A stretch of 40,170 bases of DNA from Akkermansia muciniphila (GTDB taxonomy: Bacteria > Verrucomicrobiota > Verrucomicrobiia > Verrucomicrobiales > Akkermansiaceae). Made by a program: the position numbers and the translations under genes. The notes under the pieces are model-generated. The model saw only the letters and a list, made by a program, of their open reading frames with translations. It was not told the origin of the DNA and made no database searches. Shown one piece after another: positions 3,111-30,426 of this stretch; within the stretch, counting starts at the first letter, position 1, and each line of letters begins with the position of its first letter. The stretch is taken from positions 1 to 40,170 of the forward strand of contig CAMDAD010000028.1 in NCBI GenBank assembly GCA_945888515.1, given 5' to 3'.

Positions 3111-3186
3111 ACTGTTAATAATACCAAGATGGTTCGACTGCGACTTTAGGTTGATGTCCCAGACCGTCAAGAATATCCCTGACTTG

Positions 3187-3735
3187 TTAAGCGATTTTCT
3201 CATTCTGACAACCAATCTTTTGGATGCCGTTCCAACGGAAAAAATCTGCCACGAGAAATTCCGCCGCTTTTTGGTGGGTCCGCCCCTGCCACAAGGTTGC
3301 CCGAATCGCTGGCCAATCCAATCGCTCCAACTCTTTCAAATCTTTGTAAAATAGGCTGTGGTAGGCCCCGGCATTTCCATCGCTGATGGCCCAATCTGTC
3401 GCCTCATTGATCGCTATCCCGACGGTGCTGACCAAATGCAAGATGGTTCGCTGGCATCCAGCAGGCCGACCCGTGTTTCCGCGATTGATCGTGTAAAGCA
3501 TCGGCGAGCGAGGGCAGTAATAAAAGGGCACGAATTCCCCCACAAAACGGTTTCCACAACAGCCAACGCGAATCTCTGTCGCGCGCCGCTTCTTGATGTG
3601 GTCATAGCCAATGACTTCAGGGGCGAATGCGGCCATAGACACGTCCGAGCGCATTCCGTCACCAGCGACGATATCGCGAAGATTCGCAATATCGGTGATG
3701 TGGTAAATCGGGGTATCTTCGGGCGAGAGTGTCAT
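3187..3735 (-). CDS. darT: DarT ssDNA thymidine ADP-ribosyltransferase toxin, C-terminus cut by a nonsense codon
   Basis: DarT transfers ADP-ribose from NAD+ to thymidine in single-stranded DNA and acts in phage defence. The 182-residue frame shows the family's features: Y-H-I-T near the N-terminus (H12), K-K-R-R with R50/R51 in the NAD-binding region, and K-A-A-E159-F-L-V, which aligns with the catalytic glutamate. The ATG overlaps the upstream gene's stop (ATGA at 3735-3732). The frame ends at TAA (3187-3189), but the same frame continues QVRDILDGLGHQPKVAVEPS, then WYY and a second TAA at 3115-3117. That continuation is the usual DarT ending and would restore 206 residues. The TAA most likely arose from CAA. 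Loss of the last 24 residues may inactivate or weaken the toxin. Confidence 0.9.
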   Translation of the reverse strand: MTLSPEDTPIYHITDIANLRDIVAGDGMRSDVSMAAFAPEVIGYDHIKKRRATEIRVGCCGNRFVGEFVPFYYCPRSPMLYTINRGNTGRPAGCQRTILHLVSTVGIAINEATDWAISDGNAGAYHSLFYKDLKELERLDWPAIRATLWQGRTHQKAAEFLVADFFRWNGIQKIGCQNEKIA

Positions 3736-4484
3736 TTCTTGGTAGGAGAGCTATTAACAAATTCCCATGTCTGCAAAAGAAATGTGGCCATCGCTCCGGA
3801 GAGATTGACGGCGAGTTCGGCATGGCGAGGCGAAGGCTTCGTTCCCAGTATCCCTTTGCCATGTGCATCACTGTGTTTGTTCCGAAGTGCGCCCAAGCCA
3901 ACGACCACCGATGTACAGCCACTGAGGATCTGTTTGAAGATTTGCTCCGTGTGCTGACTCGGCGAGAGATTGAGCTGATTTGATGCCAACGAGTAGAGTT
4001 TGGGGAGATCCGCCCCTTCGTCGTAAGGAGTCTTCGCGGAATCAAGAATATGTTTGCAGACCGATTCAAGCAGTGTTCTAGCAATCGTGACAGCTCCCTC
4101 TGGATCTGCGGCACGTCGTTCAATCGCCTTAGTCCACGCTTCGTGGATATAATCGAGATTCACCTTCGTGACGGCAGCCGATATCGCTCCATCACTAGGG
4201 GAACGGGCTTCGGATTCGAGCATCAGCAACAGCGGATCGAATTCAACCCGGAGAAAATCTGTCCGCTCCGCGTAGGTTCCAAACTTGCCTTTAATAAATC
4301 CCCAAAACTCTGTGAGGCTCCTGCAAACATGCACGCATTGAGGCAATAGTTTTGCGATCTTTGGTGAAGCAAGAAGGTCACGGCGAATTCTGTTGTAGTC
4401 AGGGTGATCATCGAGTTCGCCACGCGCCCGTGACACCATCATCACCTTCAAAGACTCCACCTGATTGATCAAATCGTGATTCAT
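3732..4484 (-). CDS. Abortive-infection protein with C-terminal Abi_C domain
   Basis: This 250-residue cytosolic protein ends in a segment, L-G-A-L-R-N-K-H-S-D-A-H-G-K-G followed by A-E-L-A-V-N-L-S-G-A-M-A-T-F-L, that is typical of the Abi_C domain found in phage abortive-infection proteins. The R-N-K-x-S-D-A-H-G core resembles a HEPN-type RNase motif, but this is an inference. The N-terminal 120 residues are not recognised. It sits between hsdS and darT with ATGA overlaps on both sides (4484-4481 and 3735-3732), so it is translated as part of the restriction-modification operon. It appears intact. The mechanism is unknown, and it may depend on DarTG or act alone. Confidence 0.75.
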   Translation of the reverse strand: MNHDLINQVESLKVMMVSRARGELDDHPDYNRIRRDLLASPKIAKLLPQCVHVCRSLTEFWGFIKGKFGTYAERTDFLRVEFDPLLLMLESEARSPSDGAISAAVTKVNLDYIHEAWTKAIERRAADPEGAVTIARTLLESVCKHILDSAKTPYDEGADLPKLYSLASNQLNLSPSQHTEQIFKQILSGCTSVVVGLGALRNKHSDAHGKGILGTKPSPRHAELAVNLSGAMATFLLQTWEFVNSSPTKK

Positions 4485-4798
4485 GGCCGGGCTTCATCTA
4501 GGTTCTGATCGGCTGCGAGCAACTTAGGTAACAACAGGTCGCGGGTGCGGCGGAGATTCTGGTTCTGTTTTTGAAGTAATTGAAACTGTTCGAAGATCGG
4601 CCGAACGAACGCGCGAAAGTCCTCAGCTAATTCATGCGTGGTCACTGCAACTTCGTTAGAGTTGAGCTGAATCCAATGACGTTTGTACTCTTGAGTAGAG
4701 GCGAGATCTCGAATTAAAAAGTAAACGTAGAACAAAGGAAGATCGTCGGCTGCTACGAACGGAATCACATTAGGTCCAATCGAGAACGGCTCAGTCAT
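4481..4798 (-). CDS. hsdS: HsdS specificity subunit, C-terminal part (after in-frame stop)
   Basis: This 105-residue frame continues the specificity subunit in the same reading frame, immediately after the TAA that ends the upstream part (TAA at 4801-4799, ATG at 4798). It contains the second half of target recognition domain 2 and the final conserved helix (E-Q-F-Q-L-L-Q-K-Q-N-Q-N-L-R then R-T-R-D-L-L-L-P-K-L), which is the normal HsdS ending. It could be made only by reinitiation at the abutting ATG, or it may be silent. Its own stop overlaps the abortive-infection gene (ATGA). Confidence 0.8.
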   Translation of the reverse strand: MTEPFSIGPNVIPFVAADDLPLFYVYFLIRDLASTQEYKRHWIQLNSNEVAVTTHELAEDFRAFVRPIFEQFQLLQKQNQNLRRTRDLLLPKLLAADQNLDEARP

Positions 4799-5655
<857 letters not shown>

Positions 5656-5659
<4 letters not shown>

Positions 5660-6495
5660 TCGAGTGTATCCGGGTTCTTGAGTGATCTCTTCTCTTCCGA
5701 GGTCAAACGTCGTTCGACCTTTTTGATATCCTCCTCTGGTGATAGGGATTCCGGACGGATGCCGCGTTCGAGCAGTGTCTTTCTCACCGCCTTGTTGTTG
5801 CTGATGTGCTCGTGGGAGATGGCGGACTCGGTGGAAAGACCGCGTTCACGGGAGTTGAAAATGGTGATTTCGGTGGCGAAATCTTTGGCTTTGAGGATGA
5901 TCGTGGGCGCAAAGTCGGCGAGCGGTCGGCCAGACGGAATTTTCCACTGAGCTTTCATGGCTTGCGTGGATTTTCCGAACAACGCTTGATCACCTTTGCT
6001 GCGAATCAGTGCGAAGTCCTGATTGCCACCGGTCTGCTCGAAAATGACCGAGGATAGATCCTTTTCGGTAGTGGTGAGTTTTTGGCGCGCCTGGACCCGC
6101 TCTGCCTCGAGCAAACGTAGTTCAATCAACTCGGCGCGGCGAGTCTGAACAGCGAAGTAGGTCTGGGCGAAGGCGATTTCCTGCTTCTGGGGGTCTCCGT
6201 TTTGGGCAATGAGGTAACAGGCGTAACGGGTGAGCATGACGTCTTCCACCTCCCGCTGACTTCCAGAGCCCAGCCCAACCATTTTGCTGACGTCAGCAAA
6301 ATGGTCGGAAACCTGATGACCAGAGACTTCGCAAGCCGTTTCCGCCTTGGAAATCACATTCAGAAAATTCCGCCATTGGGTGTAGCCAAGCAACACCTGC
6401 AGATCCCGGGCGAGCCAGTATTCCACGCCGCTTTCCATTTGTTGGGCGTGACCTTCAAAGGTGTCAGTGAGGGTCTGTATGTGTTCTGATTTCAT
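5656..6495 (-). CDS. dinD: DinD-like (DNA-damage-inducible protein D, BRO-N type) protein
   Basis: This 279-residue protein has the BRO-N/DinD layout: an N-terminal [13 protein letters not shown] segment (27-39), then W-R-N-F-x-N-V-I-S-K-A, then [11 protein letters not shown] (about 92-102), and a charged C-terminus. E. coli DinD is SOS-induced and inhibits RecA filaments after they form. Relatives often sit inside type I restriction-modification operons, as here between hsdM and hsdS. Both junctions are ATGA overlaps (6495-6492 and 5659-5656), so it is translated together with its neighbours. No LexA-like box was seen, so damage induction cannot be claimed. It appears intact. Its role in this operon is not established. 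Confidence 0.85.
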
Positions 6496-8105
6496 GCTTC
6501 CAGGAGTTCCACGACGTTTTCCGCAATCTTTGCTTCAAGCTCCCGCGCTTCAACGTTGAGGACTTCGAGTTCCTCGTTGAGAGCTTCGAGCTTTTCCTTG
6601 AAATCTTCGTCGCTGAGATTCTTGCCCTTGGCGACGCCGACGTAGCGGCCGGGGTTCAAACTCCAACCTTGATGTTCGATCTCTTGGATTGTCGCAGCCT
6701 TACAGAGCCCCAGAACGTCGCGGTAAGTGATCAGTGCAGAGTGAGCAGTGATCAGTGGTGGGGCAGCGGCTTCGCCGAAGAGTTCGCGAATTTTGTTTTC
6801 GGAGCCGTGTTTGAATTCGCAGGGTTGGCCGCGGTAGAGGCGGACGACATTAGCGAGGAATTCGAGCTGGGCGTTGGTGAAATCACGATGGGCTCTATCG
6901 AGCTGGCGGAAGATGTGGCGGGCATCGAGGAAGAGGACTTTGTCCGCGCGGTCAGTGCCGCGCTTGCCCTTGTCGAAAAACCACAAGGTGCAAGGAAGCG
7001 TGACGGTGAAGAAAAAATTCGGGCCGATGGCGACCATCACATCCACATCACCGGCGCGGATGATTTTTTCGCGGATCTCTTGCTCAGAAGCGCGGGCATC
7101 AGCGGCGGAGTTTGCCATGACGAAACCAGCGCGGCCTTTTTTGTTTAGTGCGGAGTGGAAATGCTGGATCCACAGGTAGTTGCCGTTGTCGGTGCGCAGG
7201 ATGCCGAAGGGGTAGCGCGGATCTCCAGCGAGGCGCTCCTTGTCGATCTTGCTGACATTGAAGGGCGGATTCGCCAGCACGAAGTCGAAGCGTCCGACCG
7301 AGTCCTGCAAGTCCTCGTAATAGGTATTGCCCTGCTTGATATCGCCGCTCAGCCCGTGGACCGCGAGGTTCAGCCGCGCGAGACGGGCGGTATCGGTGAC
7401 CCGCTCCTGCCCGTGCACGGAAATTTCCGAAGTAGGATTTTTCCGATGCGCCTCCACAAAGCGAGCCGATTGAATGAACATACCGCCCGAGCCGCAGGCG
7501 GGGTCGAAGATGCGGCCGTGATAAGGCTCCAGAATTTCCACGATCAACTTGACGATGGAGGTGGGCGTGTAGAATTCCCCACCCTTCTGGCCCTCGCTCA
7601 TGGCGAACTTGCCAAGGAAATATTCATAGATCAGCCCGAAGGTGTCGCCGCCCTTGTCCATGGGGATGGAGGCCATGGTCTTGAGCAAGGAGGCGAGCGT
7701 TTTGCTATCCAAGATCTGATAGTTCTTCGGCAGTACATCGGATAAATCCGGGTTCTCTTTCTCGATGGAGCGCATGGCTTCATTGATCGCCTGACCGACT
7801 TGCGCCCCCTCCGGCAAGCTGAGCAGATGGGAAAAGCGGGCATCGTCGGGGAGATAAACCACACCCGCCGCATGAAAATCCGTCGGCCCGATTTTCCGCC
7901 GCGTTCCGGCCTGCGGCTTGAGATCCTTTTCCACCGCCACGAAGCGGACATCCGCGTAGCGCAAGAAGATCAGCCCGAGCACGGTCGGCGAGTATTCGGA
8001 AGGCTTCAGATCTGCCCCAGCCCAAAGCTGATTGGCAGCATCCCAGAGCTTCTTTTCAAGATCGGCGTGTGAGTCGTCGGCGGTTGCTGGTTCGGTCCAA
8101 TGCAT
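6492..8105 (-). CDS. hsdM: HsdM type I restriction-modification DNA adenine methyltransferase subunit
   Basis: HsdM methylates adenine within the sequence chosen by HsdS, using S-adenosylmethionine. Key motifs in this 537-residue protein are [11 protein letters not shown] (200-210, motif I, SAM binding) and N-P-P-F (279-282, motif IV, catalytic), with the N-terminal helical domain in residues 1-150. The start chosen is ATG at 8105 ([11 protein letters not shown]), which matches the usual family start. A TTG-initiated extension of 32 residues upstream does not look like HsdM. The gene is the first of the defence operon. A short repeat at 6726-6757 adds an [10 protein letters not shown] stretch near the C-terminal end. 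It appears functional, so the locus may act as an orphan methylase if HsdS works. Confidence 0.93.
6726..6757 (-). repeat. Direct repeat inside hsdM
   Basis: AGTGATCAGTG occurs perfectly at 6726-6736 and again at 6747-6757, 21 bases (seven codons) apart, with a third partial AGTGAGCAGTG copy between them. On the coding strand it encodes [10 protein letters not shown], a low-complexity stretch that does not look like HsdM family sequence. It resembles short dispersed repeats that insert in frame. Confidence 0.6.
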
Positions 8106-8340
8106 ACGGTGAGAAGAGAGGAATACGAAAAAAATCGTGTGTTCTGTGGGAGTGACTAACGGATCACGATTTCTTTCTAGCGGACGGACCGGCGAAGACA
8201 AGGGAAAAGCGCAAAAAGCACCAAGATTCGGCGTGAGTGTATCGTTTTTGTATAATTACAAAAAGGGAGCGTGCGGTGCTGCGGAAAGCATGTTTCCCCA
8301 CGGATGGCAGGGATGGCGCGGATTTTTGAGGAGGAATGCA

Positions 8341-11186: not shown

Positions 11187-11370
11187 ACCGAGCGGTATCA
11201 CTTTCACTCACACGCGAACGATTGGCAGCTCGGCCGCATTGATCGGAACACTCCACGTCGCAAGAAATCATAGGGAGGTCCCGCGCTCGGTCTGTAGCCT
11301 TCGCGATCGCGGCCCTTCGGATCAGACGGATTTGACCTTGCAATTTTTCTCCCTAGTGTGAATCTCACTC

Positions 11371-13101
11371 ATGCTCCGTTACCTCTTGTATTTCTCGCTG
11401 GGCGGTATCGCTGCCGGTGTCGATCACGGACCCTTTGTGCAGTGGTATCACGATCCCTGCCACGAGGCGGAGATCCGTTGGGTCGATCGCGGCACGCAGC
11501 AAACGATCGAAGGAGCCTGGGCGGTGGGGAAAGCAGGATTCGGCTACGGCGATGGGGATGACAGCACGGTTTTTTCGCAGATGAAAGATCGTTACGTGAG
11601 CATCGCCCTGCGCAAAAAAATCACCGCGACTTTCCAACCGGAAGAGCAGGATGCTTTGGTGGCGGAGGTGCTATACGATGATGGCTTCGTGCTATTTATC
11701 GATGGCAAGGAAGTGCTGCGGAAAAACTGCAGCGGCAGCGACGGCGAAATCAAGTCACAGGGATCGCACGAGGCAACCAAGTGGGAACGTTTCCCACTGG
11801 GAAAAGCAGTCGGCCTCATCAAGGCAGGCTCCATCGTCAGCGCTCAGGTGATCAATGACAAAGCTGATAGCAGCGATCTTTCGTTTGATCTTAGTTTAAC
11901 GATTCAAGGGAAAAAATCGATTTATCTGATCAAGCGTCAAGATACCTGGCACTACCTCGCCAAGAAAGCTCCGGAGGCCCAATGGAAAACAGTATGTCCG
12001 GAAATTGCCCAAACGCCCGCCTCTGTGGCCAAGAATGACTCGCTGGGCTATCGTATCGCTGGGCAGACCGAGTGGACGTGGATGGACACGCAGTCGCACC
12101 CCTTTGCCAACAGCGACAGCACGGTTCACGCGGCCTCTCTCACGGGGCTTAAAGCCGATACGCGCTATGAATTCACCATCCGCCATCAAGCCGATCAAAG
12201 CCTCAACGGTCCGTATTTGATGCAGACCGCGCCGGAAACGTTTCGACCCATGCATTTTGTCATCGGTGGCGACATGTATCACGGTCGCAACTCGCTCGAT
12301 GCCATGAACAAACGCGCGGGTGCAGAGGACCCGTTGTTTGCCGCGCTGATTGGCGACCTTGCCTACGCGAATGACAGCATCGTCGAACGCTGGTACGACT
12401 GGATTGACTCCTGGGTACAAAACGCCAAAGCGCCCGACGGTCGACTGATTCCCATGGTCATCGGCATGGGCAATCATGAAGTAGTGGGCACGGGATTTTT
12501 TCCTGAAAAAAACACGCCTGGTCCGGAAAAATCGACACAGTTTTACAGCCTGTTCCGCATGGGCCAACGCGATGGTCGGGCGATTTCCTACTACAACCTC
12601 GATATCGGCAATTACCTGAGTTTGATTTTGTTAGACTCAGGACACACCCAACGCATTTCCGAACAGGTGACATTTTTGCAAAGCTCCGCCGCCGAGCGTC
12701 GTAAGGTGCCTTATGTTTTCGCCGCCTATCATCGACCCGCGTGGGGCACGGGCGTGAAAGAGGATGCGATGGATATTCAGCAGAAGTGGTGTCCGCTATT
12801 CGAAGCGCACGGAGTGGATGCCGTATTCGAGCACGATCATCACACCTACAAACGCACATGGCCACTGATCGCGGGCAAACGTGATGACGCCAAGGGCATC
12901 CCCTACCTCGGCGATGGAGCTTGGGGAGCTGCTGTGCGTCGCGTTCCGCCCAAGGATTTGCTCACGCGCCCATGGATCGCCAAGCAGGCCGACCTGAATC
13001 ATCTTTTCCGCGTTACACTCGACCATGGGAAGTTTCATTGTGAGGCGAAAACAGCGGATGGCAAAGTCTTCGATGAGGCGACTTATCCACAGCGTCAGTA
13101 G
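11371..13101 (+). CDS. Purple-acid-phosphatase-like metallophosphoesterase with N-terminal fibronectin-like domains
   Basis: This 576-residue protein has a short hydrophobic N-terminus, suggesting export. An extended beta-rich part (20-290) includes a fibronectin-III-like segment typical of purple acid phosphatases (L-T-G-L-K-A-D-T-R-Y-E-F near 258-269). The catalytic domain follows: G-G-D301, G-D329-L-A-Y332-A-N, G-N368-H369-E, A-Y-H454-R-P-A-W and E-H488-D-H490-H-T-Y, together the full set of dimetal ligands. It should hydrolyse phosphate esters outside the cytoplasm. TTGACC at 11332 and TAGTGT at 11354 could be its promoter, leaving about 11 bases to the ATG. Its stop abuts the stop of batE with no bases between. 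Confidence 0.85.
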   Translation: MLRYLLYFSLGGIAAGVDHGPFVQWYHDPCHEAEIRWVDRGTQQTIEGAWAVGKAGFGYGDGDDSTVFSQMKDRYVSIALRKKITATFQPEEQDALVAEVLYDDGFVLFIDGKEVLRKNCSGSDGEIKSQGSHEATKWERFPLGKAVGLIKAGSIVSAQVINDKADSSDLSFDLSLTIQGKKSIYLIKRQDTWHYLAKKAPEAQWKTVCPEIAQTPASVAKNDSLGYRIAGQTEWTWMDTQSHPFANSDSTVHAASLTGLKADTRYEFTIRHQADQSLNGPYLMQTAPETFRPMHFVIGGDMYHGRNSLDAMNKRAGAEDPLFAALIGDLAYANDSIVERWYDWIDSWVQNAKAPDGRLIPMVIGMGNHEVVGTGFFPEKNTPGPEKSTQFYSLFRMGQRDGRAISYYNLDIGNYLSLILLDSGHTQRISEQVTFLQSSAAERRKVPYVFAAYHRPAWGTGVKEDAMDIQQKWCPLFEAHGVDAVFEHDHHTYKRTWPLIAGKRDDAKGIPYLGDGAWGAAVRRVPPKDLLTRPWIAKQADLNHLFRVTLDHGKFHCEAKTADGKVFDEATYPQRQ

Positions 13102-13836
13102 TCAAGGAAGCGCGATTTTTTCTAACGAATCTTTGCGCAGCCACCCGCGTGTGTGTCCCGGTGTAAGCTCTGCGAAGACGTAATCACCCTGTTCTTGCAA
13201 CAGGCTCACCACGGAGCCCAACGGACAGGAAGTCACTTTTTCCGAGGTCGGAAAAGGCGATAGCTGGAGCGCTTGATCGGCTGCCAGCACTACCGCGAGA
13301 CGGTCCTCCGATGCGCGCTGTTTCACCACCCATGCCGAACCCGTCATCGCCGCACAGGCGCATGCCGATAACGCAAAGCACAGCAATCTGGTATTGCGAC
13401 GCGATGACAGCCAAGCGCCCCAGAAAAATACAACCAGAAAAACGCTTGATACTAAAAAAACAACGAACCACTCATCGCGACTGAACCACGCGATCCATGC
13501 AGGCAAATCCCTCGCTAGAATCTTCGCATCGGGCAATGACAATTCTTGGCGCAACAGGGTCAGATTGTTTTGAGTATCCACCGCGCGGGGACTCAGGGCA
13601 AGGCTGCGCTCGTAAGCGAGAACCGCGCGCCCCACATCGCCGGCTTGTTGATGACAGTAGCCGAGATTGTAATAGACGCTGGCACTCGGTCCCTCTTCTA
13701 GCAAGGCGGTGGAATAGCGGGAGATGGCTTGCTCCCACTCACCTTTCTCAGCAGACCATTGCGCGAGTAAAAAAGGAGGAGCACCAGCCTGTACCAGTAG
13801 CGTCAGCGCGAACCATAGAATGAGAAAAGCTTTCAT
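13102..13836 (-). CDS. batE: BatE-like TPR and SH3 domain protein
   Basis: This 244-residue protein is the last gene of the Bat (Bacteroides aerotolerance) cluster. It has a signal sequence (1-20), TPR repeats (about 30-105: A-S-V-Y-Y-N-L-G-Y-C-H-Q-Q-A-G-D), two transmembrane helices (about 120-150 and 152-172) and a C-terminal SH3-like domain (about 180-240). It probably works with BatA, BatB and BatD as part of a membrane complex at the cell envelope linked to stress tolerance; the biochemical role is not known. Its ATG overlaps the batD stop (13836-13833, ATGA). The 3' end abuts the phosphatase gene on the other strand. Confidence 0.8.
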   Translation of the reverse strand: MKAFLILWFALTLLVQAGAPPFLLAQWSAEKGEWEQAISRYSTALLEEGPSASVYYNLGYCHQQAGDVGRAVLAYERSLALSPRAVDTQNNLTLLRQELSLPDAKILARDLPAWIAWFSRDEWFVVFLVSSVFLVVFFWGAWLSSRRNTRLLCFALSACACAAMTGSAWVVKQRASEDRLAVVLAADQALQLSPFPTSEKVTSCPLGSVVSLLQEQGDYVFAELTPGHTRGWLRKDSLEKIALP

Positions 13837-15620
13837 GAATCGAGCGATTGCAGGGCTTGTTGATGAAGAGATTGCCAGCGCGACCAGTCCACTTCTTGCG
13901 CGGACGATGCATAAGACCAGCGATCCGCCTCGCGAAAAAAGGCAGTGACGGGAGAATCAGGGCCACAGTTTTTGACCACATCATGCAGCGAAATGGCAGA
14001 CGCATTCACCTGCCATCGCGCGGCCAAGGGGATCTGGAGGGAGCGTCGAGCCGACTCCCAGTATCGCGCGGCAGATTGCGCACGCGCATGCTGCTGCGCC
14101 TCGGCGAGAGCCTGCGCGATGTCTCTTTTTCGCTGTTGCCGCGCGCGCAGCAGTGGGTCTTGCCAATGCCTCCGCCACCACGCTGCGGCAGGGGCCAGAG
14201 CGGAGAAAAACAAAGCGAGAGAACCTAACACAAAAACATTCACGCGTCCCGCCAAACCGGAGAAAAGAGCGGCGCGGTCATTGCGTTTCCGCAAGGGCAT
14301 CAGACCCTGCGTATCCTCCGCCGGCGCAGGCGCGGTGACCTCTGTTGTTGGAACCTTTTCCTCTTGCATCGCCTCACCGCTGATGGCGACGCGTTTCACA
14401 TCGGAAGCAATCGCGAGATACTTCGCTTGTTTCGGGTCGAAATAACTCAGCGCAAACGCCACATCGTATTCGCCATTGCGCCGCGCGATGGCATTGTACT
14501 GAAACACCTTGCTGCCCGAAAACGAGGCGATGTCGCTAGGAGTGAATTGATCCTGCCCCGGATACCATTTCCACAAGTCCGCCGGGCTCAGCTCGGGCGC
14601 TTTCATCGTGGCAAAGTTCCCGCTGCCCTTAATGCGCAGCGCCACCCGCTGCGGCTCGCCGGTTTTCCACTGCGCAGGAATCTCTAACGCATCGAAAGCG
14701 AACTCACCCACCGCGCCAGAGAAGTTGGCGGGTTTCCCCTCCTCCGGCAAGGCGCGCACGGTGAGCGGCATGTCGGCGCTGCGCAAGGTGACTTCGTTTT
14801 CTGTATATCTCACTTGCGCACCGCGACCAAAGGCAGCGCGAAACGGATCATTCGGATCGCCACGACGCGGGCGCAGCACAGGCTTCGAACGATCCGGCAA
14901 GGCCACAGTGGCTTTCACCGAGAGATTGACCGACTGCGTGCCCGCCTTCGTCGCGGAAATGCCGCCGAACCAAGTAAGCGTGCGATGCTGTTTACCGTCC
15001 TTGGTTTCGACACTTTGCTGCGGCTGCTCGCTGACATTGTGCAACGTGAAGGCTCCGCTTTCTGGTTGGATGATGCTGCGCAACTCGATTTGCGCATCCA
15101 TCGGTAAAAACGCCTGAATCCGAACGGGCGCGATTTCTCCCAGATAGATTTCCTTGCGCTCGGGAATCGCCAACTCGACGACCATTGTGCCGCATCGCTG
15201 GGGATCTACCGCGGGAGCATCGGGCTCCGCCTGGGCCGTTCCGTCATCGAACACCACGAGTTGTTGCGGCTTCGTTTGCAGCACCTTGCCATCGACTTTC
15301 ACCGCAACCGGGGGAATCGTGTATTCCCCTGCTACCATCGATCCCACCGTGTAGGAAAAACGCACCGTTTGCGAGGCCACGCCGTTAACGATGGATAGCA
15401 TCTGGTTTCGGCCTTGAAAATCGATGATCAAATTCGGCACCGCCGCGATGACCGGTTGCTCGGCCCTGCCACCACTCACTTGAATCGTAAAATTCGCCCC
15501 TTCCCCTGTAGCGAGGCGATTTGCATCGAGCGTCACTTCCACCTCCGCACCTTGAACGGCCATGAGCAACCATGTCGCCAGCAGCAGGTGACTCCACCAA
15601 TGTCGTGCCCTCCTCACCAT
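13833..15620 (-). CDS. batD: BatD oxygen-tolerance protein
   Basis: BatD is a large surface- or periplasm-facing protein anchored by a C-terminal helix. This 595-residue copy has a signal peptide (about 1-24, cleaved after V-Q-G-A), several immunoglobulin-like beta domains in the V-T-L-D-A-N-R-L-A-T-G-E style of the BatD family (starting at residue 29), a transmembrane segment near 455-475 and a cytoplasmic tail rich in charged helices. It overlaps the upstream batB/C gene by 7 bases (15614-15620) and overlaps batE by 4. All Bat genes here are therefore translationally coupled. No sign of damage was seen. Confidence 0.85.
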   Translation of the reverse strand: MVRRARHWWSHLLLATWLLMAVQGAEVEVTLDANRLATGEGANFTIQVSGGRAEQPVIAAVPNLIIDFQGRNQMLSIVNGVASQTVRFSYTVGSMVAGEYTIPPVAVKVDGKVLQTKPQQLVVFDDGTAQAEPDAPAVDPQRCGTMVVELAIPERKEIYLGEIAPVRIQAFLPMDAQIELRSIIQPESGAFTLHNVSEQPQQSVETKDGKQHRTLTWFGGISATKAGTQSVNLSVKATVALPDRSKPVLRPRRGDPNDPFRAAFGRGAQVRYTENEVTLRSADMPLTVRALPEEGKPANFSGAVGEFAFDALEIPAQWKTGEPQRVALRIKGSGNFATMKAPELSPADLWKWYPGQDQFTPSDIASFSGSKVFQYNAIARRNGEYDVAFALSYFDPKQAKYLAIASDVKRVAISGEAMQEEKVPTTEVTAPAPAEDTQGLMPLRKRNDRAALFSGLAGRVNVFVLGSLALFFSALAPAAAWWRRHWQDPLLRARQQRKRDIAQALAEAQQHARAQSAARYWESARRSLQIPLAARWQVNASAISLHDVVKNCGPDSPVTAFFREADRWSYASSAQEVDWSRWQSLHQQALQSLDS

Positions 15621-17473
15621 GTTTTCCCTTTGGTTGTGTTGTCGGATTTACCATCGCGGCGCTGCGGAAAGGGGATCACGCGTCGCTCCTCGTGACGCAG
15701 CGATTCTAACAACTGCTTAGCTTCCTCCGCCGTCATCTCGCGGGCTTGCGCGGGTGACGCCTCCTGTTGACCTTGCTCCTTACCCTCGTTTTCTGATGGT
15801 TCTTGTGGGGCCTCCTGAGATTCCTTCGGCTCGCCCTTTTCCTCCTGCGTCTCGCCGTTCTCTTCCTTGCCTTGCTCCTTTGCGTCTTCTTCTTTCCCCT
15901 CTTTCGATTCCTGCTTCTGCTCTTCGCCACTCTGCTCCTGCGAATCTTTCTGCTCCTGCTCCTGCTTTTCTTTTTCCTGTTGTTCCTGCTCTTTTTTCTC
16001 CTGCTCCTGCTGGTCTTTGTTTTGCTGATCCTGCGGATTTTGTTGCTGCTGTTGTTGTTGCAGTTCTTCGAGTTTCTTTTTTACCAAGTCGCAATTGTAG
16101 CGAGCATCGTCATCGTCGCCGCGCAGGGCCAGCGCGTCTTCGTAGGCTTTGATGGAGTCCTGCCAGCGCTTGACGGTGGTCTCAGGTTCCTGTTGCTGCA
16201 CTTGTTGCCCGAGCCGATACAGGGCATTTCCCAAGTTGTAATAGGCGCGTTGTTGTAATTCCAGATCCGGGGTATGAAGCGACTCACGCAAGTGATCCGT
16301 CGCCTCCACAAATTCACCGCGCTGGTAAGCCTCCGTGCCGCGATTGTAACTCACCGTCTCCGCCGTTTGCGCTGGTAGCGGATAACTCAAGGCCGCAGTG
16401 ACTATGATGGCGAGCGTCCATCCGCTGAGAGCTTGGCGAGAACTGATGCGTTTTCGATCCGAAAGAAAAAACTCTACAAGCAACAAAAACACCGCAAGTG
16501 CTAAGGGCCACACGAATTGTTCTAAGGGGATTTTTTCCATGCGCTGGTTCAGATCGGTTTTCGGCATCAGGCGCAGTTTTTCTTGATAGATCGTATTCAG
16601 ACCCTCCGCGCCACGACCGAGCGGAACGTAGAGCCCCTTGGTGGTCTCGGCGATTTTTTTCAAAGTGCTCTCGTCCAGCTTGGTGCGCACGACTTCTCCC
16701 TTTTGATCGCGCATGACATCGCGACGGCCATTTTGAAACTGTACGGGAATCGTCGATCCCTCGGGATTTCCGACGCCCACGGTGTAGATCACCATGCCTT
16801 TTTCATGCGCCTTTTTCGCCGCATCCAGTACGTCTCCTTGCAAGTCTTCGCCGTCGGTGATGAGCACGAGGATGCGCTGATTGTTTTGATTTTCCTCAAA
16901 CAAACGCTCGGCCTCCTGGATCGCGCTGGCGAGGTCGGTGCCCTGATGCGGAATCATTTGGGTGTTGATCACTTGCAGGGATTCGCGGAAGGCATCGTAG
17001 TCGAGCGTGAGCGGACACAAGGCATACGCACTTCCCGCAAAGGGAATCAGCCCGATGCGGTCGCCCTCGAGCCGATCGACAAAATCATGGATGCCGAGCC
17101 GCGCGCGGTCGAGTCGGTTCGGCGTGAGGTCGTCCGCGAGCATGCTCTGCGAAGTATCGAGCGCGAATAACAAGTCGATGCCGCGACGCCGCACCTCGCG
17201 AAATTCATAGCCCATCTGCGGACGAGCCAGTGCCGTAAAACAGAGGCCAATCGCTGAGATCCACAACACGCGCTTGAGTCGGCGACGTTGCGGCGAATCC
17301 CCAGCAAAGAGCAAGGGCAGGAATCGTGCGTGTGCCATTTTTTCCAAATCACTCTGACGACGGCGATCGAATTTCCGATAGAAAAGCGTGATCGCAACGC
17401 AGACGACAAGGCCCAGCGCCAACCACCAGGGCTGGCCGAACTGCAAACCGGATTCTTCTGCAAAGGCAATCAT
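15614..17473 (-). CDS. batB: BatB-BatC fusion: von Willebrand A domain, TPR repeats and Q/E/K-rich tail
   Basis: Residues 1-340 are BatB: two N-terminal membrane segments (about 14-31 and 68-82), a von Willebrand A domain with an intact MIDAS motif D106-T-S108-Q-S110 and a further membrane helix (about 330-345). A second hydrophobic segment lies near 360-375. Residues about 380-480 carry TPR repeats (Y-Y-N-L-G-N-A-L-Y), and 480-600 form a low-complexity stretch of Q, E and K, both typical of BatC. BatB and BatC are often separate genes. The start is ATG at 17473, where it overlaps the batA fragment's stop as ATGA; an upstream extension to 17557 would lie within batA. The MIDAS suggests metal-dependent binding to partner proteins. 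Confidence 0.85.
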   Translation of the reverse strand: MIAFAEESGLQFGQPWWLALGLVVCVAITLFYRKFDRRRQSDLEKMAHARFLPLLFAGDSPQRRRLKRVLWISAIGLCFTALARPQMGYEFREVRRRGIDLLFALDTSQSMLADDLTPNRLDRARLGIHDFVDRLEGDRIGLIPFAGSAYALCPLTLDYDAFRESLQVINTQMIPHQGTDLASAIQEAERLFEENQNNQRILVLITDGEDLQGDVLDAAKKAHEKGMVIYTVGVGNPEGSTIPVQFQNGRRDVMRDQKGEVVRTKLDESTLKKIAETTKGLYVPLGRGAEGLNTIYQEKLRLMPKTDLNQRMEKIPLEQFVWPLALAVFLLLVEFFLSDRKRISSRQALSGWTLAIIVTAALSYPLPAQTAETVSYNRGTEAYQRGEFVEATDHLRESLHTPDLELQQRAYYNLGNALYRLGQQVQQQEPETTVKRWQDSIKAYEDALALRGDDDDARYNCDLVKKKLEELQQQQQQQNPQDQQNKDQQEQEKKEQEQQEKEKQEQEQKDSQEQSGEEQKQESKEGKEEDAKEQGKEENGETQEEKGEPKESQEAPQEPSENEGKEQGQQEASPAQAREMTAEEAKQLLESLRHEERRVIPFPQRRDGKSDNTTKGKTW

Positions 17474-17982
17474 GGCAATCTCCGATAACGCGTGTGACGC
17501 AATAACCACTCCATCAACAGCAGGCCCAGTCCTGGCCACAGCGCCACAGCGAACCATTCGTCATAGTCCTCGAATTTTTTCTCCTTGCGCGCCGTGGTCT
17601 CTAACTGATTGATCACCTCGTAAATGCTTTCTAACGAATCGGTATCGGTAGCGCGAAAGTATTTTCCGCCTGTCTTCTCGGCGATTTCTCCCAGCGTTTT
17701 CTCATCGATCTCCACCTTCATCATCTGCATCTGCGTGCCGAACATCGTGCGCACTGGATACGGCGCCTCGCCATTGGTGCCAGCACCAATGGTGTAGATC
17801 TTGATGCCTAGTGCCTTGGCCGCTTCCGTCGCAGTCAGTGGATTGATCGAGCCGCTGGTATTCACACCATCGGTCAGCAAAATGACGATCTTGCTTTTCG
17901 CCTCGGAATCGCGCAGGTGATCCACCGAGGAAACAATCGCAGAGCCAATCGCCGTGCCATCTTCCACCTGACCGATTTTCAC
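17470..17982 (-). pseudogene. batA: BatA, C-terminal half only (N-terminus missing)
   Basis: The frame matches the second half of BatA: V-K-I-G-Q-V-E-D-G-T-A-I-G-S-A-I, then I-V-I-L-L-T-D-G-V-N-T-S-G (von Willebrand A domain, late part) and a C-terminal membrane helix. Normal BatA is about 330 residues, with N-terminal membrane helices and the DxSxS MIDAS motif; all of that is absent here. Reading further 5' in frame gives D-E-D-W-I-A-K-R-L-Q-D up to about 18018, still BatA-like, after which the sequence becomes asnS. The only in-frame start is a GTG at 17982 overlapping the asnS fragment's TGA. Without the MIDAS half it should not be functional. This is either a deletion or a chimeric join. 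Confidence 0.8.
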
Positions 17983-18416
17983 ATCCTGCAGGCGCTTCGC
18001 GATCCAGTCTTCATCATGCGGAAGACCGCGCCGTGCAGATTGGTGCGCGGGCGCAGGTGTGAAATCCCACGCAAAAATTCCAGACTGTGGCCTTTTTTCT
18101 GCAAGGGGTAATCAGAAGGCACCTCGCCGATCAATCGTATGTGATCCGCGTGCATTTCCCACTGCTGGCCCTGCCCCAGCGATGCCACCAAGCGACCAGT
18201 GATTTCCACCGATGCCCCCGTGAGCATGCGCTCCACCTGCTCGTAACCATCGATGCCCGCATCGACCACCACCTGCAAGTTCGCGAGACATGTGCCGTCG
18301 TTGATTTCGAGGAACGAAAATGCCTTCGAATCGCGCCGCGTGCGCACCCATCCGGCAATGGTCACAGATTCTCTCTCCTTCTCGCTTCGCAACACCCGCT
18401 TGATCAATTCTCGCAT
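17979..18416 (-). pseudogene. asnS: Asparaginyl-tRNA synthetase, N-terminal third only, fused to batA
   Basis: Residues 1-133 are the anticodon-binding OB-fold and the beginning of the catalytic domain of AsnRS: V-T-I-A-G-W-V-R-T-R-R-D-S-K (18-31), F-L-E-I-N-D-G-T-C-L-A-N-L-Q-V-V and Y-P-L-Q-K-K-G-H-S-L-E-F-L-R followed by H-L-R-P-R-T-N. Family proteins continue for another 300 residues with class II motifs 1-3. Here the frame leaves the family after G-A-V-F-R-M and stops 11 residues later inside batA. A TTGACA promoter precedes the ATG. An intact asnS or a GatCAB route must exist elsewhere, unless this is an assembly artefact. Confidence 0.85.
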
Positions 18417-18423
18417 GGGTCAT

Positions 18424-18452
18424 CCCGTAGCAAATGGTCCCGCCCTTGTCAA
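18424..18452 (-). promoter_or_regulatory. Promoter of asnS (leaderless layout)
   Basis: A perfect TTGACA (18452-18447), a 17-base spacer and a weak TACGGG (18429-18424) end 7 bases before the ATG at 18416, so the mRNA should start at or next to the start codon. Confidence 0.5.
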
Positions 18453-18511
18453 CGCGACCATGCCAGCATTTTCACTCGACAGCCGCGCGCGGAAATGAAA
18501 ACACTCTGCGC

Positions 18512-18820
18512 ATGGAACATCACGTGTATTTCTGGCTGAAAGAGGAAAACAAAAACGCTGCTGACCGCGCCGCCTTCGAGCAAGGCCTCCGCGATCTACT
18601 CAAACTCCCCGGCATCGAGCGCGGTCTGTGGGGTCGCCCGGCTGCCGTGATGCCACGTCCGGTCATCGATCTGAGCTGGGACTATGCGCTGACGATGACA
18701 TTTACCGACATCGCCGCGCAAGACGCCTATCAAGTCGATCCCGACCACCAGAATTTCATCGACACCCATAAAGAAAAGTGGGCGCAGGTGAAAGTGATGG
18801 ACATTGAGCCATCGGCGTAA
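18512..18820 (+). CDS. Dabb (stress-responsive alpha/beta barrel) family protein
   Basis: This 102-residue protein begins M-E-H-H-V-Y-F-W-L-K and has the ferredoxin-like alpha/beta-barrel pattern of Dabb proteins: an early H-x-V-x-F strand, F-E-Q-G-L-R-D-L-L-K-L-P-G-I, then D-Y-A-L-T-M-T-F-T-D and Y-Q-V-D-P-D-H-Q-N-F. Dabb proteins are small dimers, often unassigned enzymes or stress proteins. ATG at 18512 is chosen because the family starts with this strand; earlier in-frame starts add non-family sequence. It is divergent from asnS and abuts trpS stop-to-stop with zero bases between. Confidence 0.8.
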   Translation: MEHHVYFWLKEENKNAADRAAFEQGLRDLLKLPGIERGLWGRPAAVMPRPVIDLSWDYALTMTFTDIAAQDAYQVDPDHQNFIDTHKEKWAQVKVMDIEPSA

Positions 18821-19789
18821 TCAAGCGCTCAGTCCCGTCGCCTTGCGGATGCGTTGCAGCACATGGCTCGCCGTCTCGCGGGCGCGCTCGGCACCTTGCT
18901 GCAAGATCGCATCGACGTAACCAGGATCGGCGAGAATTTCCTCACGCCGCGCACGCATCGGCGCGAAGTAATTCCAATACGCTTCCCACAGCTGGGTTTT
19001 GTAATGCCCGTAGCCAAAGCCGCCGCTCTGGAAGCTCTGGACCATCGATTGGTATTCGGCATCAGTGACGAAGAGCTTGTAGAGCGCGAGAATCGTCGAG
19101 TTTTCGATAGGCTTCGGTTCCTCCACCGGCGTCGAGTCAGAAACGATCTTCATGATCAGCTTGCGCAGCGGTTTTTCCTCACCGAACATCGGGATCGTAT
19201 TGTGATAGGACTTGCTCATTTTTTGGCCGTCCAGTCCAGGCACCACGGCGGAGTCATCGCGAATCATCGGCTCGGGTATGGTCAAGGTCCCCTCACCCAG
19301 CGCCTCGTTGATTTTCACCGCAAGATCGCGCGTGACTTCCAGATGCTGCTTCTGATCCTTGCCCACAGGCACAAGGTTCGAGTCGTAGAGCAAAATATCC
19401 GCTGCCATCAACACCGGATAGGCGAACAGCGCATGATTCGCCGAGAGGCCCTTGGAAACTTTGTCCTTATACGAATGGCAGCGCTCCAGTAAGCCCATCG
19501 GGCATACCGTCGAGAGAATCCATGCGAGCTCATTGACTTCTGGCACATCGCTTTGACGGAAGAACACCGCCTTCGCTGGGTCTAGCCCGCAGGCGAGAAA
19601 GTCCACCGCCAGCTCACGCGTATTTGCCAGCAGCTCCGGTCCGTTGTGCAGCGAAGTCATCGCGTGGTAGTTCGCGATGAAATAAAACGCCTCGCCCTGC
19701 GATTGCAGACGGATCGCCGGCTCCATCGCCCCGAAGTAGTTGCCAATGTGAAGTTTTCCGGAGGGTTGTAGTCCTGTGAGGATGCGCAT
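18821..19789 (-). CDS. trpS: Tryptophanyl-tRNA synthetase
   Basis: TrpRS (322 residues) charges tRNA-Trp using ATP. It shows the class I motifs: L-Q-P-S-G-K-L-H-I-G-N-Y (6-17, HIGH equivalent) and K-M-S-K-S (near 194-198). It also has the TrpRS-typical D-I-L-L-Y-D and V-G-K-D-Q-K-Q-H-L-E segments. The start is ATG at 19789 (M-R-I-L-T-G-L-Q-P-S-G). A 38-residue upstream extension is not family sequence and would cross the promoter. It is a single gene whose stop abuts that of the Dabb gene, and it diverges from tatA across a 104-base gap holding both promoters. Confidence 0.95.
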   Translation of the reverse strand: MRILTGLQPSGKLHIGNYFGAMEPAIRLQSQGEAFYFIANYHAMTSLHNGPELLANTRELAVDFLACGLDPAKAVFFRQSDVPEVNELAWILSTVCPMGLLERCHSYKDKVSKGLSANHALFAYPVLMAADILLYDSNLVPVGKDQKQHLEVTRDLAVKINEALGEGTLTIPEPMIRDDSAVVPGLDGQKMSKSYHNTIPMFGEEKPLRKLIMKIVSDSTPVEEPKPIENSTILALYKLFVTDAEYQSMVQSFQSGGFGYGHYKTQLWEAYWNYFAPMRARREEILADPGYVDAILQQGAERARETASHVLQRIRKATGLSA

Positions 19790-19795
19790 GGGCGG

Positions 19796-19824
19796 AGCAT
19801 GGTCTGCCACGCGAAGATTTTCAA
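19796..19824 (-). promoter_or_regulatory. Promoter of trpS (leaderless layout)
   Basis: On the minus strand TTGAAA (19824-19819), a 17-base spacer and CATGCT (19801-19796) end 6 bases before the ATG at 19789. No Shine-Dalgarno is present. Confidence 0.5.
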
Positions 19825-19859
19825 GGATTCGATCAAAAAACTCTCTGAAAAATGAAAGG

Positions 19860-26842: not shown

Positions 26843-27261
26843 TCCAATCGCCCCGCGGCATAGGCCTGAAACACCCGCGCGATCTCATCACGCACGCGAC
26901 GGAAAACCTGAATCTGCTCTTCCTCCGTGCCCGTCGCGTGCGCCGGATCGTCGAAGCCCCAGTGATGGCGGTTCACCTGTCCCGGAAACATCGGGCATGC
27001 CTGATCGGCATTGCCGCAGACAGTGATGACCGTCTCCACTTGCTGATCGAGAAACTCGTTCAGATGCTTCGAATGATGCGCGGAAAGATCGATGCCGATT
27101 TCCGCCATCGCCTTGATCGCGAGCGGGTGCACATAACCTGCCGGATTGGATCCAGCGCTGGCAACAGTAAAATCATCCCCCAGCGCACGCCGCAATAAGC
27201 CTTCGGCCAAATGGGAGCGACAGGAATTTCCCGTACAAAGAATCAGGATTAATGGTTTCAT
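26827..27261 (-). CDS. arsC: Arsenate reductase, thioredoxin-coupled (low-molecular-weight phosphatase fold)
   Basis: This 144-residue ArsC reduces arsenate to arsenite using a cysteine relay. The P-loop C9-T-G-N-S-C14-R-S is the arsenate-binding site, and C82 and C89 ([10 protein letters not shown]) form the relay disulfide that thioredoxin reduces, as in the Staphylococcus pI258 type. D105-P (D-D-P) is the expected acid loop. It is the last gene of the ars operon, and its ATG overlaps the acr3 stop (27261-27258, ATGA). All catalytic residues are present. The 3' end overlaps ribE on the other strand. Confidence 0.95.
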
Positions 27262-28316
27262 AAAGTATGACGAGTAAAAAAATAATTACGAAGAAAAAAC
27301 GACACATAAACCAAACCAATCAATGCAGGCACTTCGATCAGAGGACCCACCACCGCCGCGAAAGCGACGCCTGAGTCCAGACCAAAGACAGCGATTGCCA
27401 CTGCAATCGCGAGTTCAAAATTATTGCCCGCCGAGGTGAATGCCACACTCGCGGTGCGCGGATAGTCCGATCCCAGTTTCGCCGCCATGACAAAACTCAC
27501 GAGGAACATCACCGCGAAATAGATCACTAAGGGAATCGCAATGCGCAGCACGTCCAGCGGCAGACGCACGATGGCATCGCCTTTGTAGGTGAACATCAGC
27601 ACGATCGTGAACAGCAACGCCATCAAGGTCAGCGGCGCGATTTTTGGGAGGAACCTGCTCTCATACCATTCCTCTCCTTTCACCTTCACTAGCAGCACAC
27701 GACACATAGCCCCCACAGCAAAAGGAATGCCGAGATAAATCAGTACACTCTGAAAAATGTCCGACATCGCAATCGGCACGATCACACCTTTCAGCCCGAC
27801 GTAGGGCGGCAGCACGGTGATGAAAAACCAAGCGTAGGCACTGTAAAACAGAATCTGCGCGATGCTGTTGAGTGCCACCAGGCCCGCCGCATACTCGCTG
27901 CTGCCCTTGGCAAGATGATTCCATACCAGCACCATCGCGATGCAACGCGCGATGCCCACGAGGATCAAACCGATCATGTAATCCGGTTGATCACGCAAAA
28001 AAACCACCGCCAAGATCCACATCAATACCGGACCAATGATCCAGTTCTGCACCAAGGATAGCGAAAGGATTTTTTTGTTGGCGAACACCTTCGGCATCTC
28101 GGCATAACGCACTTTTGCCAAGGGCGGAATCATCATCACGATCAAGCCAATCGCGAGCGGGATGTTGGTGGTGCCAACCGTCATCGGCGCAAAAAAAGCC
28201 GCCGGATCGGCAATCACAAAGTTTCCTAACAAAACGCCTAGGCCCATGGCCGCAAAAATCCAGACCGTCAGGTAGCGGTCGAGAAACGACATGTTTTTTG
28301 CGATTGATTCTGTCAT
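27258..28316 (-). CDS. acr3: Acr3-type arsenite efflux permease
   Basis: The 352-residue permease has ten hydrophobic helices and the ACR3 family signature G-I-A-R-C125-I-A-M-V-L-V-W-N, whose cysteine is required for arsenite transport in characterised members. A second conserved region, [15 protein letters not shown], lies near residue 295. It exports the arsenite produced by ArsC, and the upstream ArsA and ArsD may energise and feed it. It is annotated arsB in some genomes, but belongs to the ACR3 family rather than the E. coli ArsB family. ATGA overlaps occur at both ends. Confidence 0.95.
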
Positions 28317-30100
28317 GATTTTTTTGATTCAGACAATGCGAACAAAGCGGCAACGCCCACTGGTTCCTCCACTTGCCACGGCAGCCAGGCCACGCGCTTG
28401 GCATGTGTTTGCGCGACTTCCGTGAGATAGCGATGCTCGGATTCTTCGCGCCGCATCAGCAAGGGATCACAGGTGCCGCAGCCTAACAAACTTTGATTCA
28501 TCACCCACGCAAACGGCTCGATCTGCGCGCGACGCAGGTCTTCTTGCAGTGCGGCGGCTTCGTGAATGGGCGTCGCCTCGGGCACGGCAACTAGGATCAT
28601 CGCGGTGTAGTGGTGATCGCGCAATCGCTCTAACAAACGCAACACTTCTTCCGGTTGCGATGTTCCTGTCTGCCGCTCCAGCTCGCGTTGATAGGCCTCG
28701 CTGGCATCTAACAAAAGTAGCGTATGACCGGTCGGCGCGGTATCCAGCACGACAAAGCCTTTTTCTCCCTGCGCCACTTCCCGCGCAAACGCACGAAACA
28801 CCGCGATCTCTTCGGTGCAGGGCGAACGCAAGTCTTCTTCTAACAAAGCGCGCGCCGATTCATCGAGATGCGCTGATTGCTCGGCCATCACCATCGCGGT
28901 GTAAGCGGCCGTTTCCGCCGCCGGATCGATTTTGCTTAGCGTCAATCTTTCCATTTGCCCATCGAGCGTCTGCGCCACATGCGCGGCGGGATCGGTGGTG
29001 CTGAGATGGACAGCATGGCCACGCTTCGCCAAAGAAACGGCAATTGCCGCCGCAACGGTGGTCTTTCCTACACCACCCTTGCCCATGGTCATGATCACGC
29101 CACGTCCGCGTTTTTCCAGCTCATCGACCAATTCACTGAGGCGCAGCATAGCCGGTGCCTGCCAGTCGTTCTTTTGCACAGTCGTAAGATCCGACACTTC
29201 GTTTTCTAACAATTTCCACAATCCCGCCACGCCGAGAATGTTGATCGCTTTCAATGGCACGAGGAAAGTCGGTAAGCTATTGATGAATTCGCTTGCTTGT
29301 TCCAGCGCCATGCGACCGCGCTCTTGCATCGCTTGTGAAATCTTATCATGCGGGCAATCCGTGGTGAACGATCCATTGATCACAAGCTGCTGCTGCGTCA
29401 CTCCGAGTTGCTGCAGTTCGGTCGATGTGCGCTTCGCCTCGCGTAAAGAAGCGCGTTGTGGACGGCTGACAAGCACTAGGGTCGTCAGTCGCGGATCCGC
29501 CAGTGTCGCCACCGCCGCTTCATAAATCGCACGTTGTTTTTCCAAACCGGCCAAAGGACCAAGACAGGAGGTGCCACTTTGGTTGTCATCGAGAAATTGA
29601 TCCCACGCCTTCGCCAAACTCATCAACCGCAAAGTGTGCCCCGTCGGCGCGGTATCGAACACGATGTGATCATACTGCGCTACCGATGCCGCATCGCCAA
29701 TCAAACCCGCAAACTCATCGAACGCGGCAATTTCGACCGTGCACGATCCCGAAAGTTGCTCCTCCATGCTGCGCAGAGCCGTTTCAGGCAAGATGCCGCG
29801 CATCGGGCCGATCAACCGCTCGCGATAGGCTGCCGCAGCTTCCACGGGATTGATGTTCAGTGCGTCCAGTCCCTTCACTCCAGCAATCGCCGTCGGATGA
29901 TTGGTGAGCTTTGTGTCTAACACCTCGTCAAGGTTTGATGCTGGATCGGTGCTGACTAGCAACACGCGCTTGCCCGCTTCGGCGAGACGCAGCGCCGTCG
30001 CGCAGGACAACGAAGTTTTCCCCACGCCTCCTTTCCCAGTGAAAAACAAATACCGCGTCGCAATAGCGGGATCAGGAAGATACTGGGGCAGAGCGTTCAT
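28313..30100 (-). CDS. arsA: ArsA arsenical pump-driving ATPase (duplicated)
   Basis: This 595-residue protein has two homologous ATPase halves, each with a deviant Walker [12 protein letters not shown] (near 21-31) and [10 protein letters not shown] (near 342-351). Each half also has a D-T-A-P-T-G-H-T-L switch motif. The tandem layout is that of pump ArsA, in which metalloid binding stimulates ATP hydrolysis and drives the efflux permease. The candidate metalloid cysteines (the C-P-H-D and C-G-T-C-D regions) are present. The start ATG at 30100 overlaps the arsD stop; an extension to 30211 would lie inside arsD. Confidence 0.95.
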
Positions 30101-30426
30101 TTCGCTTCCTCCTTCGCCGCAAAATCGCGCACCCACTCGCGGCGCTCTTCTTGCGTGGGATAACGGCCTTTCATCCGCAGCACACCATCGCAAAACACCA
30201 GCGGTAGGCATTCCGTCCCCTCCGCGCGCAGCAGTTCCTGCACCGCAGGATTCTGTGCAAAGGCGATCGCTTGCTGGCTGAGGTTGTAGCGATCGATCTT
30301 GACACCGCGCTGCGAAAACTGCGCCAGCATCGCCGCGAAGTTGATGAGATCAGGGTCGATGCTCGTGCCACAAATGCCCGTGGAGCAGCACATGGGTGGA
30401 TCGTATACTTGGATGTGAGTGATCAT
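30097..30426 (-). CDS. arsD: ArsD arsenic metallochaperone
   Basis: This 109-residue thioredoxin-fold protein carries the arsenite-binding C13-C14 and C19 (M-C-C-S-T-G-I-C) that hand As(III) to ArsA. The rest matches ArsD, with I-N-F-A-A-M-L and L-P-L-V-F-C-D-G-V. C-terminal vicinal cysteine pairs seen in some ArsD proteins are absent, as in many shorter homologues. It starts 6 bases after arsR, and its stop overlaps arsA (ATGA). Confidence 0.93.
   Translation of the reverse strand: MITHIQVYDPPMCCSTGICGTSIDPDLINFAAMLAQFSQRGVKIDRYNLSQQAIAFAQNPAVQELLRAEGTECLPLVFCDGVLRMKGRYPTQEERREWVRDFAAKEEAK

Follow-up and report, generated by a model that had tools for sequence, protein, structure and literature searches.

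An abrupt asnS–batA junction in an Akkermansia muciniphila assembly: a recent illegitimate DNA break or an assembly error

The genome under study (G000; 54 contigs totalling 3,357,411 bases, at 97.5% completeness) carries an abrupt join between asnS and batA on the minus strand of contig C28, the whole of which (40,170 bp) constitutes the window analysed here. The join lies at 18,015, within 18010–18020, and the batA side continues in a different frame, as located by BLAST, by base-by-base comparison with the nearest relative, G009, and by the codons of further relatives. The protein identity to G009 is 95–96% for both halves, each of which matches up to the join. Specifically, the G009 asnS match runs through ...CGCATG and ends at 18015, base-by-base agreement extending to ...TTCCGCATG at 18,015, and the G009 batA match starts at GATGAAGAC. 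The BLAST alignment with G009 covers 1825 bp (18015–19837) at 88.9% DNA identity on the asnS side, breaking at 18015, and 6702 bp (11336–18033) at 87.3% on the batA side, breaking at 18033. Since these two alignments converge on a single point, the join is not a matter of chance, and it falls where the preliminary description had placed it, at about 18010–18020.

The two batA codons preceding the break are ACG AAC in two of eight relatives, ACG CAT in two (G003 and G006), and ACT CAT, ACG CAC, ACC CAC and ACC GAT in the remaining ones. Using the G009 codons, native asnS and batA share 1 base at the join; the microhomology would be CGCATG, 6 bases, if the G000 batA had ACG CAT as in G003 and G006. 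A repeat scan detected no direct repeat at the join itself and no inverted repeats, and two weak pairs of direct repeats (15–16 nt, 87–88% alike) occur with copies to either side of it. The scans for promoters (0 found, shuffle mean 0.5) and terminators (1 found, shuffle mean 1.3) gave nothing above chance. A join between DNA of different species was ruled out, as both sides have the same nearest relative, similar identity and similar GC.

Elsewhere in the window, a defence-like cluster at 2064–8201 encodes HsdM, a BRO-N protein, HsdS, an Abi_C protein and a macro-domain protein; the HsdS, of 286 aa, has only one PF01420 specificity domain, and the alignment to G009 stretches ends at 8335, just outside the cluster. 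At 27258–30211, a 632-aa ArsA ATPase (three PF02374 stretches matched) adjoins an SBF-family transporter, the two perhaps forming an arsenite export pair.

On the asnS side, profile and G009 comparison assign codons 1–134 to the 5' fragment (18015–18416, minus strand), one more than the approximately 133 residues read earlier. The fragment consists of the OB-fold anticodon-binding domain and lacks the catalytic domain: PF01336 is complete (1–75 of 75), as in the N-terminal domain of an AsnRS, the class II catalytic domain PF00152, which an AsnRS must also have, is missing, and the NCBIfam asnS profile (TIGR00457) is matched over positions 4–141 of 455. The AsnRS part is 95% identical to the G009 AsnRS over 136 residues. 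The frame opens at 18,416 and stops 11 residues past the break, ending at 17,979, which gives an open frame (17979–18416, minus strand) of 145 aa, composed of AsnRS residues 1–134 and 11 out-of-frame residues. Upstream of asnS lies a gene for a Trp/Tyr-family tRNA synthetase (PF00579; 18821–19903, minus strand), the same neighbour as in G009 and G001.

On the batA side, the 3' fragment (17473–18015, minus strand) comprises codons 154–334, covering the latter half of the VWA domain together with the C-terminal part; it is 96% identical to G009 BatA over 170 residues, and its frame continues to a stop at 17470. BatA is indeed entered in the middle of its von Willebrand A domain, as the preliminary description held: the PF00092 match covers only profile positions 75–173 of 174 and starts at 1 in the intact G009 batA, leaving the fragment without the complete VWA of a BatA. 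The N-terminal PF07584 domain and the DVSGS motif, which we take to be the MIDAS, are absent from the fragment and present in the intact G009 gene. A candidate 170-aa BatA remnant, putatively started at a GTG (17470–17982, minus strand), overlaps the preceding stop by 4 bases, the asnS-frame stop and the GTG sharing GTGA at 17979–17982. The cluster continues on the minus strand with genes assigned by profiles, namely an intact batB-like gene with VWA and TPR (15614–17557; its listed ORF start falls within batA, and by eye an ATG at 17472 is likelier), an intact batD (13833–15620) and, at the end of the cluster, a gene for a TPR protein (13102–13836). The moxR and DUF58 genes, seen upstream of batA in G009, are not found directly upstream of it in the window locus. 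These results agree with the earlier claim that the rest of asnS, the BatA MIDAS half, moxR and DUF58 are missing at this locus. A functional fusion protein was ruled out, since the asnS and batA frames differ.

We searched the whole G000 assembly for the missing halves. With G009 DNA (6.4 kb from just before the asnS break onward), the second half of asnS was not found, the sole match falling outside asnS, in the region of glf and the epimerase on C1. G000 has two PF00152 proteins, named AspRS and LysRS by NCBIfam; G009 and G005 have three. With 13.3 kb of G009 DNA upstream of the batA break, 12 matches were obtained among the 40 of 54 first-look candidates that were scored: nine, at 67–79% identity, are moxR/DUF58-type paralogues; of the other three, one is a stretch of 50 bp that the window itself contains, one a 35-bp tRNA 3' end located on C2, and one a 75-bp match to C29. 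This search revealed no close copy in the G000 assembly of the moxR, DUF58, DUF4381 or batA start of the window locus, nor was a close copy found in G000 of the genes that stand ahead of moxR in G009 and G005, which are transglutaminase-like and GSDH/cytochrome genes. The genome-wide search for the missing parts of asnS, batA, moxR and DUF58, as suggested in the preliminary description, returned paralogues of moxR/DUF58 and no close copy of the parts missing from the window locus.

Among the relatives, a search with the first part of AsnRS matched 50 of 57 genomes, G000 included. In the other 49, the best match lies in a frame that stays open for 453 aa or more, against about 145–146 aa in G000, and asnS is whole in all eight same-genus relatives that have it. 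A BatA orthologue occurs in 8 of 9 same-genus relatives, with 72–96% identity. G002, a same-genus genome of 88% completeness, has no asnS match and batA only at paralogue level (38%), which may reflect incompleteness or joint loss. The two genes lie on different contigs in all eight same-genus genomes with both, which lends no support to an asnS-...-moxR-DUF58-batA segment between the two ends, as had been considered beforehand. The minimum asnS–batA distances in the needed direction, lower bounds obtained by arithmetic from the lengths of the separate contigs, are about 20 kb (G009 and G008), 27 kb (G003), 31–32 kb (G007 and G004), about 49 kb (G005), 112 kb (G001) and 427 kb (G006).

The old neighbours of both loci are found apart from them in G000. 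Downstream of asnS, glf follows directly in G001, and one large gene and then glf follow in G009; G000 retains glf and the following genes on C1, in the order of G001. Beside the G000 glf stand two unrelated genes (L111, 12995–19967), for a 390-aa protein without a Pfam match and then for a 1921-aa protein of near-identical repeats, and these occupy the place of asnS in G001. Upstream of the bat locus, G005 has tRNA-Val and purB, which G000 keeps on C2, adjoining a DAO-family (dadA-like) gene (L191, 10718–11974). A relative of the latter lies in G006 on C24 (L089, 3312–4592), downstream of asnS and dnaG, and its placement is a possible trace of exchange between the asnS and bat loci. With glf on C1 and purB/tRNA-Val on C2, both of them long contigs, either both loci had already left these surroundings or those joins are wrong too. 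A simple deletion between normal neighbours was rejected, since asnS and batA lie on separate contigs in the eight relatives and glf and purB/tRNA-Val are retained elsewhere. In G009, the GSDH gene of the bat locus adjoins 35 bp that repeat the 3' end of tRNA-Val, and next to these 35 bp stand integrase-like and CHC2 zinc finger primase-like genes (C10; L078, 1315–6384); this region looks like an element integrated at tRNA-Val.

Both fragments retain the signature of constraint. Against G009, the asnS part aligns gap-free over 133 of 133 codons with dN 0.022, dS 0.60 and dN/dS 0.036, the batA part gives dN 0.017, dS 0.29 and dN/dS 0.06 over 181 codons, and whole neighbouring genes have a dS of 0.43–0.45. 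Neither fragment contains a stop or frameshift before the break. Changes polarised to the G000 branch amount to 23 silent and 4 changing in asnS and 13 silent and 6 changing in batA; these counts, from codons aligned in G009, G005 and G001, with sites left out at which both genomes differ from the outgroup G005, are rough, as the outgroup dS is above 1. Since both fragments are intact and strongly constrained, the join is either very young or an artefact: in view of the absence of decay a real event must be very recent, and an artefact predicts the same pattern.

According to the preliminary description, a genuine deletion would remove an essential-type enzyme and the regulator of the Bat complex at once; our data support neither as a necessary consequence. 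No AsnRS match was found in 7 of the 57 genomes, of which one, G054, is 99% complete, and AsnRS looks dispensable in the order. Five of the seven, G054 among them, have just two PF00152 proteins, and G013 and G025 have a third, weak and partial. Some components of the indirect Asn-tRNA route, in which charging of tRNA-Asn by AspRS is putative, are present in G000: GatB was found; the tRNA-Asn starts with TCCGGTT and ends with AACCGGA-GCCA, giving the U1–A72 pair that we read by eye in all eight genomes looked at, G000 included; and the one bacterial AspRS found carries an RDHGG motif with His at the specificity position. We take this His, together with a Gly further on, to be marks of relaxed specificity, from work on the Pseudomonas AspRS. 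Across 25 genomes the position is His or Gln with or without AsnRS, Gln being found in some of those that gave no AsnRS match. AspRS type was rejected as a test of AsnRS loss, being uninformative, as relatives keeping AsnRS also have the His type; shared in this way, RDHGG is permissive only and no sign that AsnRS is unused. PMC4206432 reports that some bacteria combine AsnRS with a relaxed AspRS and GatCAB. As for Bat, G000 has a second cluster on C8 (3.0–10.9 kb) with moxR (AAA_3), DUF58, a 239-aa gene, batA, batB and batD in order, so that a complete loss of the regulator is not supported. Its batA and batB have VWA, with PF07584 matches below the cut-off, and the 239-aa gene, at the place of DUF4381, has no Pfam match. 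Judging from this gene content, Bat function may be backed up by the C8 cluster.

Together, we favour a recent real illegitimate junction, formed by deletion with 1–6 bp of microhomology, over a chimeric contig, and give it slightly better than even chances; all such probabilities here are judgements and were not computed. The junction would be present in the assembled strain or in the dominant part of its population. A lineage-specific rearrangement would first have placed asnS near the bat operon on one strand, after which asnS codon 135 to batA codon 153 would have been lost together with moxR, DUF58, DUF4381 and possibly some further genes. The two remnants would be non-functional, and survival would depend on Asp-tRNA(Asn), made by an AspRS of presumably relaxed specificity and amidated by GatCAB, plus the second bat cluster. 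One deletion would explain all absences together, namely both missing halves and the intervening genes, none of which was found in a 97.5%-complete assembly. At most six shared bases would be too few for a k-mer assembler to make the join without spanning reads. The presence of glf and purB/tRNA-Val elsewhere speaks of changed surroundings of both loci and counts for a deletion after rearrangement, and the 88.9% and 87.3% DNA identity to one relative indicates one species background for the two halves. Against a real deletion counts that asnS lies beside bat in no relative, and against a real loss that all eight same-genus relatives having asnS keep it whole. A further point against is the lack of any decay, which would require the event to be very recent.

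The main competitor, to which we assign a chance somewhat short of even, is an assembly artefact: within one species, two loci that are not linked would have been fused by a chimeric molecule or a wrong join, and the bin would lack the contigs carrying the remaining halves. The separate contigs of asnS and batA in relatives, the cutting of a conserved synthetase and a conserved operon by a single event, the full constraint of both halves up to the break with similar dS in whole neighbours, and a source assembly in 54 contigs all suit it; however, the 97.5%-complete set would have to lack two separate contigs, one with the asnS end and one with moxR to the batA start, the join has at most 6 common bases, and the other breaks in the window, where it was alignable to G009 or G001 stretches (not gene by gene), are short gaps or ends of homology. 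A reciprocal rearrangement, by inversion or exchange, could also have broken both genes and left the partner junction, batA start to asnS end, outside the assembly. An inversion between opposed genes yields exactly such a sense join, one missing contig would hold both missing halves, and on C2 purB–tRNA-Val is joined to the DAO-family gene whose G006 relative lies downstream of asnS and dnaG; we nevertheless consider it very improbable, as neither the asnS end nor the batA start was found in G000, glf, or a large gene then glf, follows asnS in G001 and G009, and the DAO link comes from a single relative that is more distant. Least credible of all, and close to dismissal, is a functional new gene, either a free OB-fold protein, or a BatA remnant whose translation is coupled and starts at the GTG overlapping the asnS stop, or both; the GTGA overlap and the intact 145-aa frame would fit it, but the AsnRS part runs on into 11 frame-shifted residues, neither PF07584 nor DVSGS remains in the BatA part, and ancestry with whole genes accounts for the constraint.

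Truncating pseudogene junctions produced by illegitimate (microhomology) recombination are a known kind in bacteria, as are chimeric contigs in draft or metagenome assemblies. The present join resembles the former in being abrupt and mid-gene, with 1–6 common bases, loss of the DNA between and remnants in different frames, and differs in that it hits a synthetase whole in the same-genus relatives having it and unites two genes linked in no relative. It resembles the latter in that loci unlinked in relatives are joined inside both genes without decay, and differs in that the missing halves were not found elsewhere in the assembly and no long common word stands at the join. A literature search on chimeric contigs and truncated genes returned no paper matching all terms. 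Whether an ordinary DNA break of very recent date or a faulty assembly, the asnS–batA join represents no new kind of gene or system.

As in the AsnRS-free bacteria with relaxed AspRS and GatCAB treated in PMC4206432, G000 has GatB, tRNA-Asn with U1–A72 and one bacterial AspRS; unlike them, it still has the AsnRS 5' end, and the relaxed specificity is putative. Only tentatively, with the odds clearly against it, do we suggest from these genes that AsnRS has just been lost from the lineage, which would now rely on AspRS and GatCAB for tRNA-dependent asparagine synthesis, its asnS remnant being still undecayed. If the junction is artefactual, the records of asnS and batA in G000 are false pseudogenes, and claims of a species without AsnRS or this Bat operon would be wrong, in line with the earlier warning against annotation across the join, which our analysis supports. 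If the junction is real, a verrucomicrobial lineage would only recently have switched its Asn-tRNA formation from the direct to the indirect route and would retain the latter alone.
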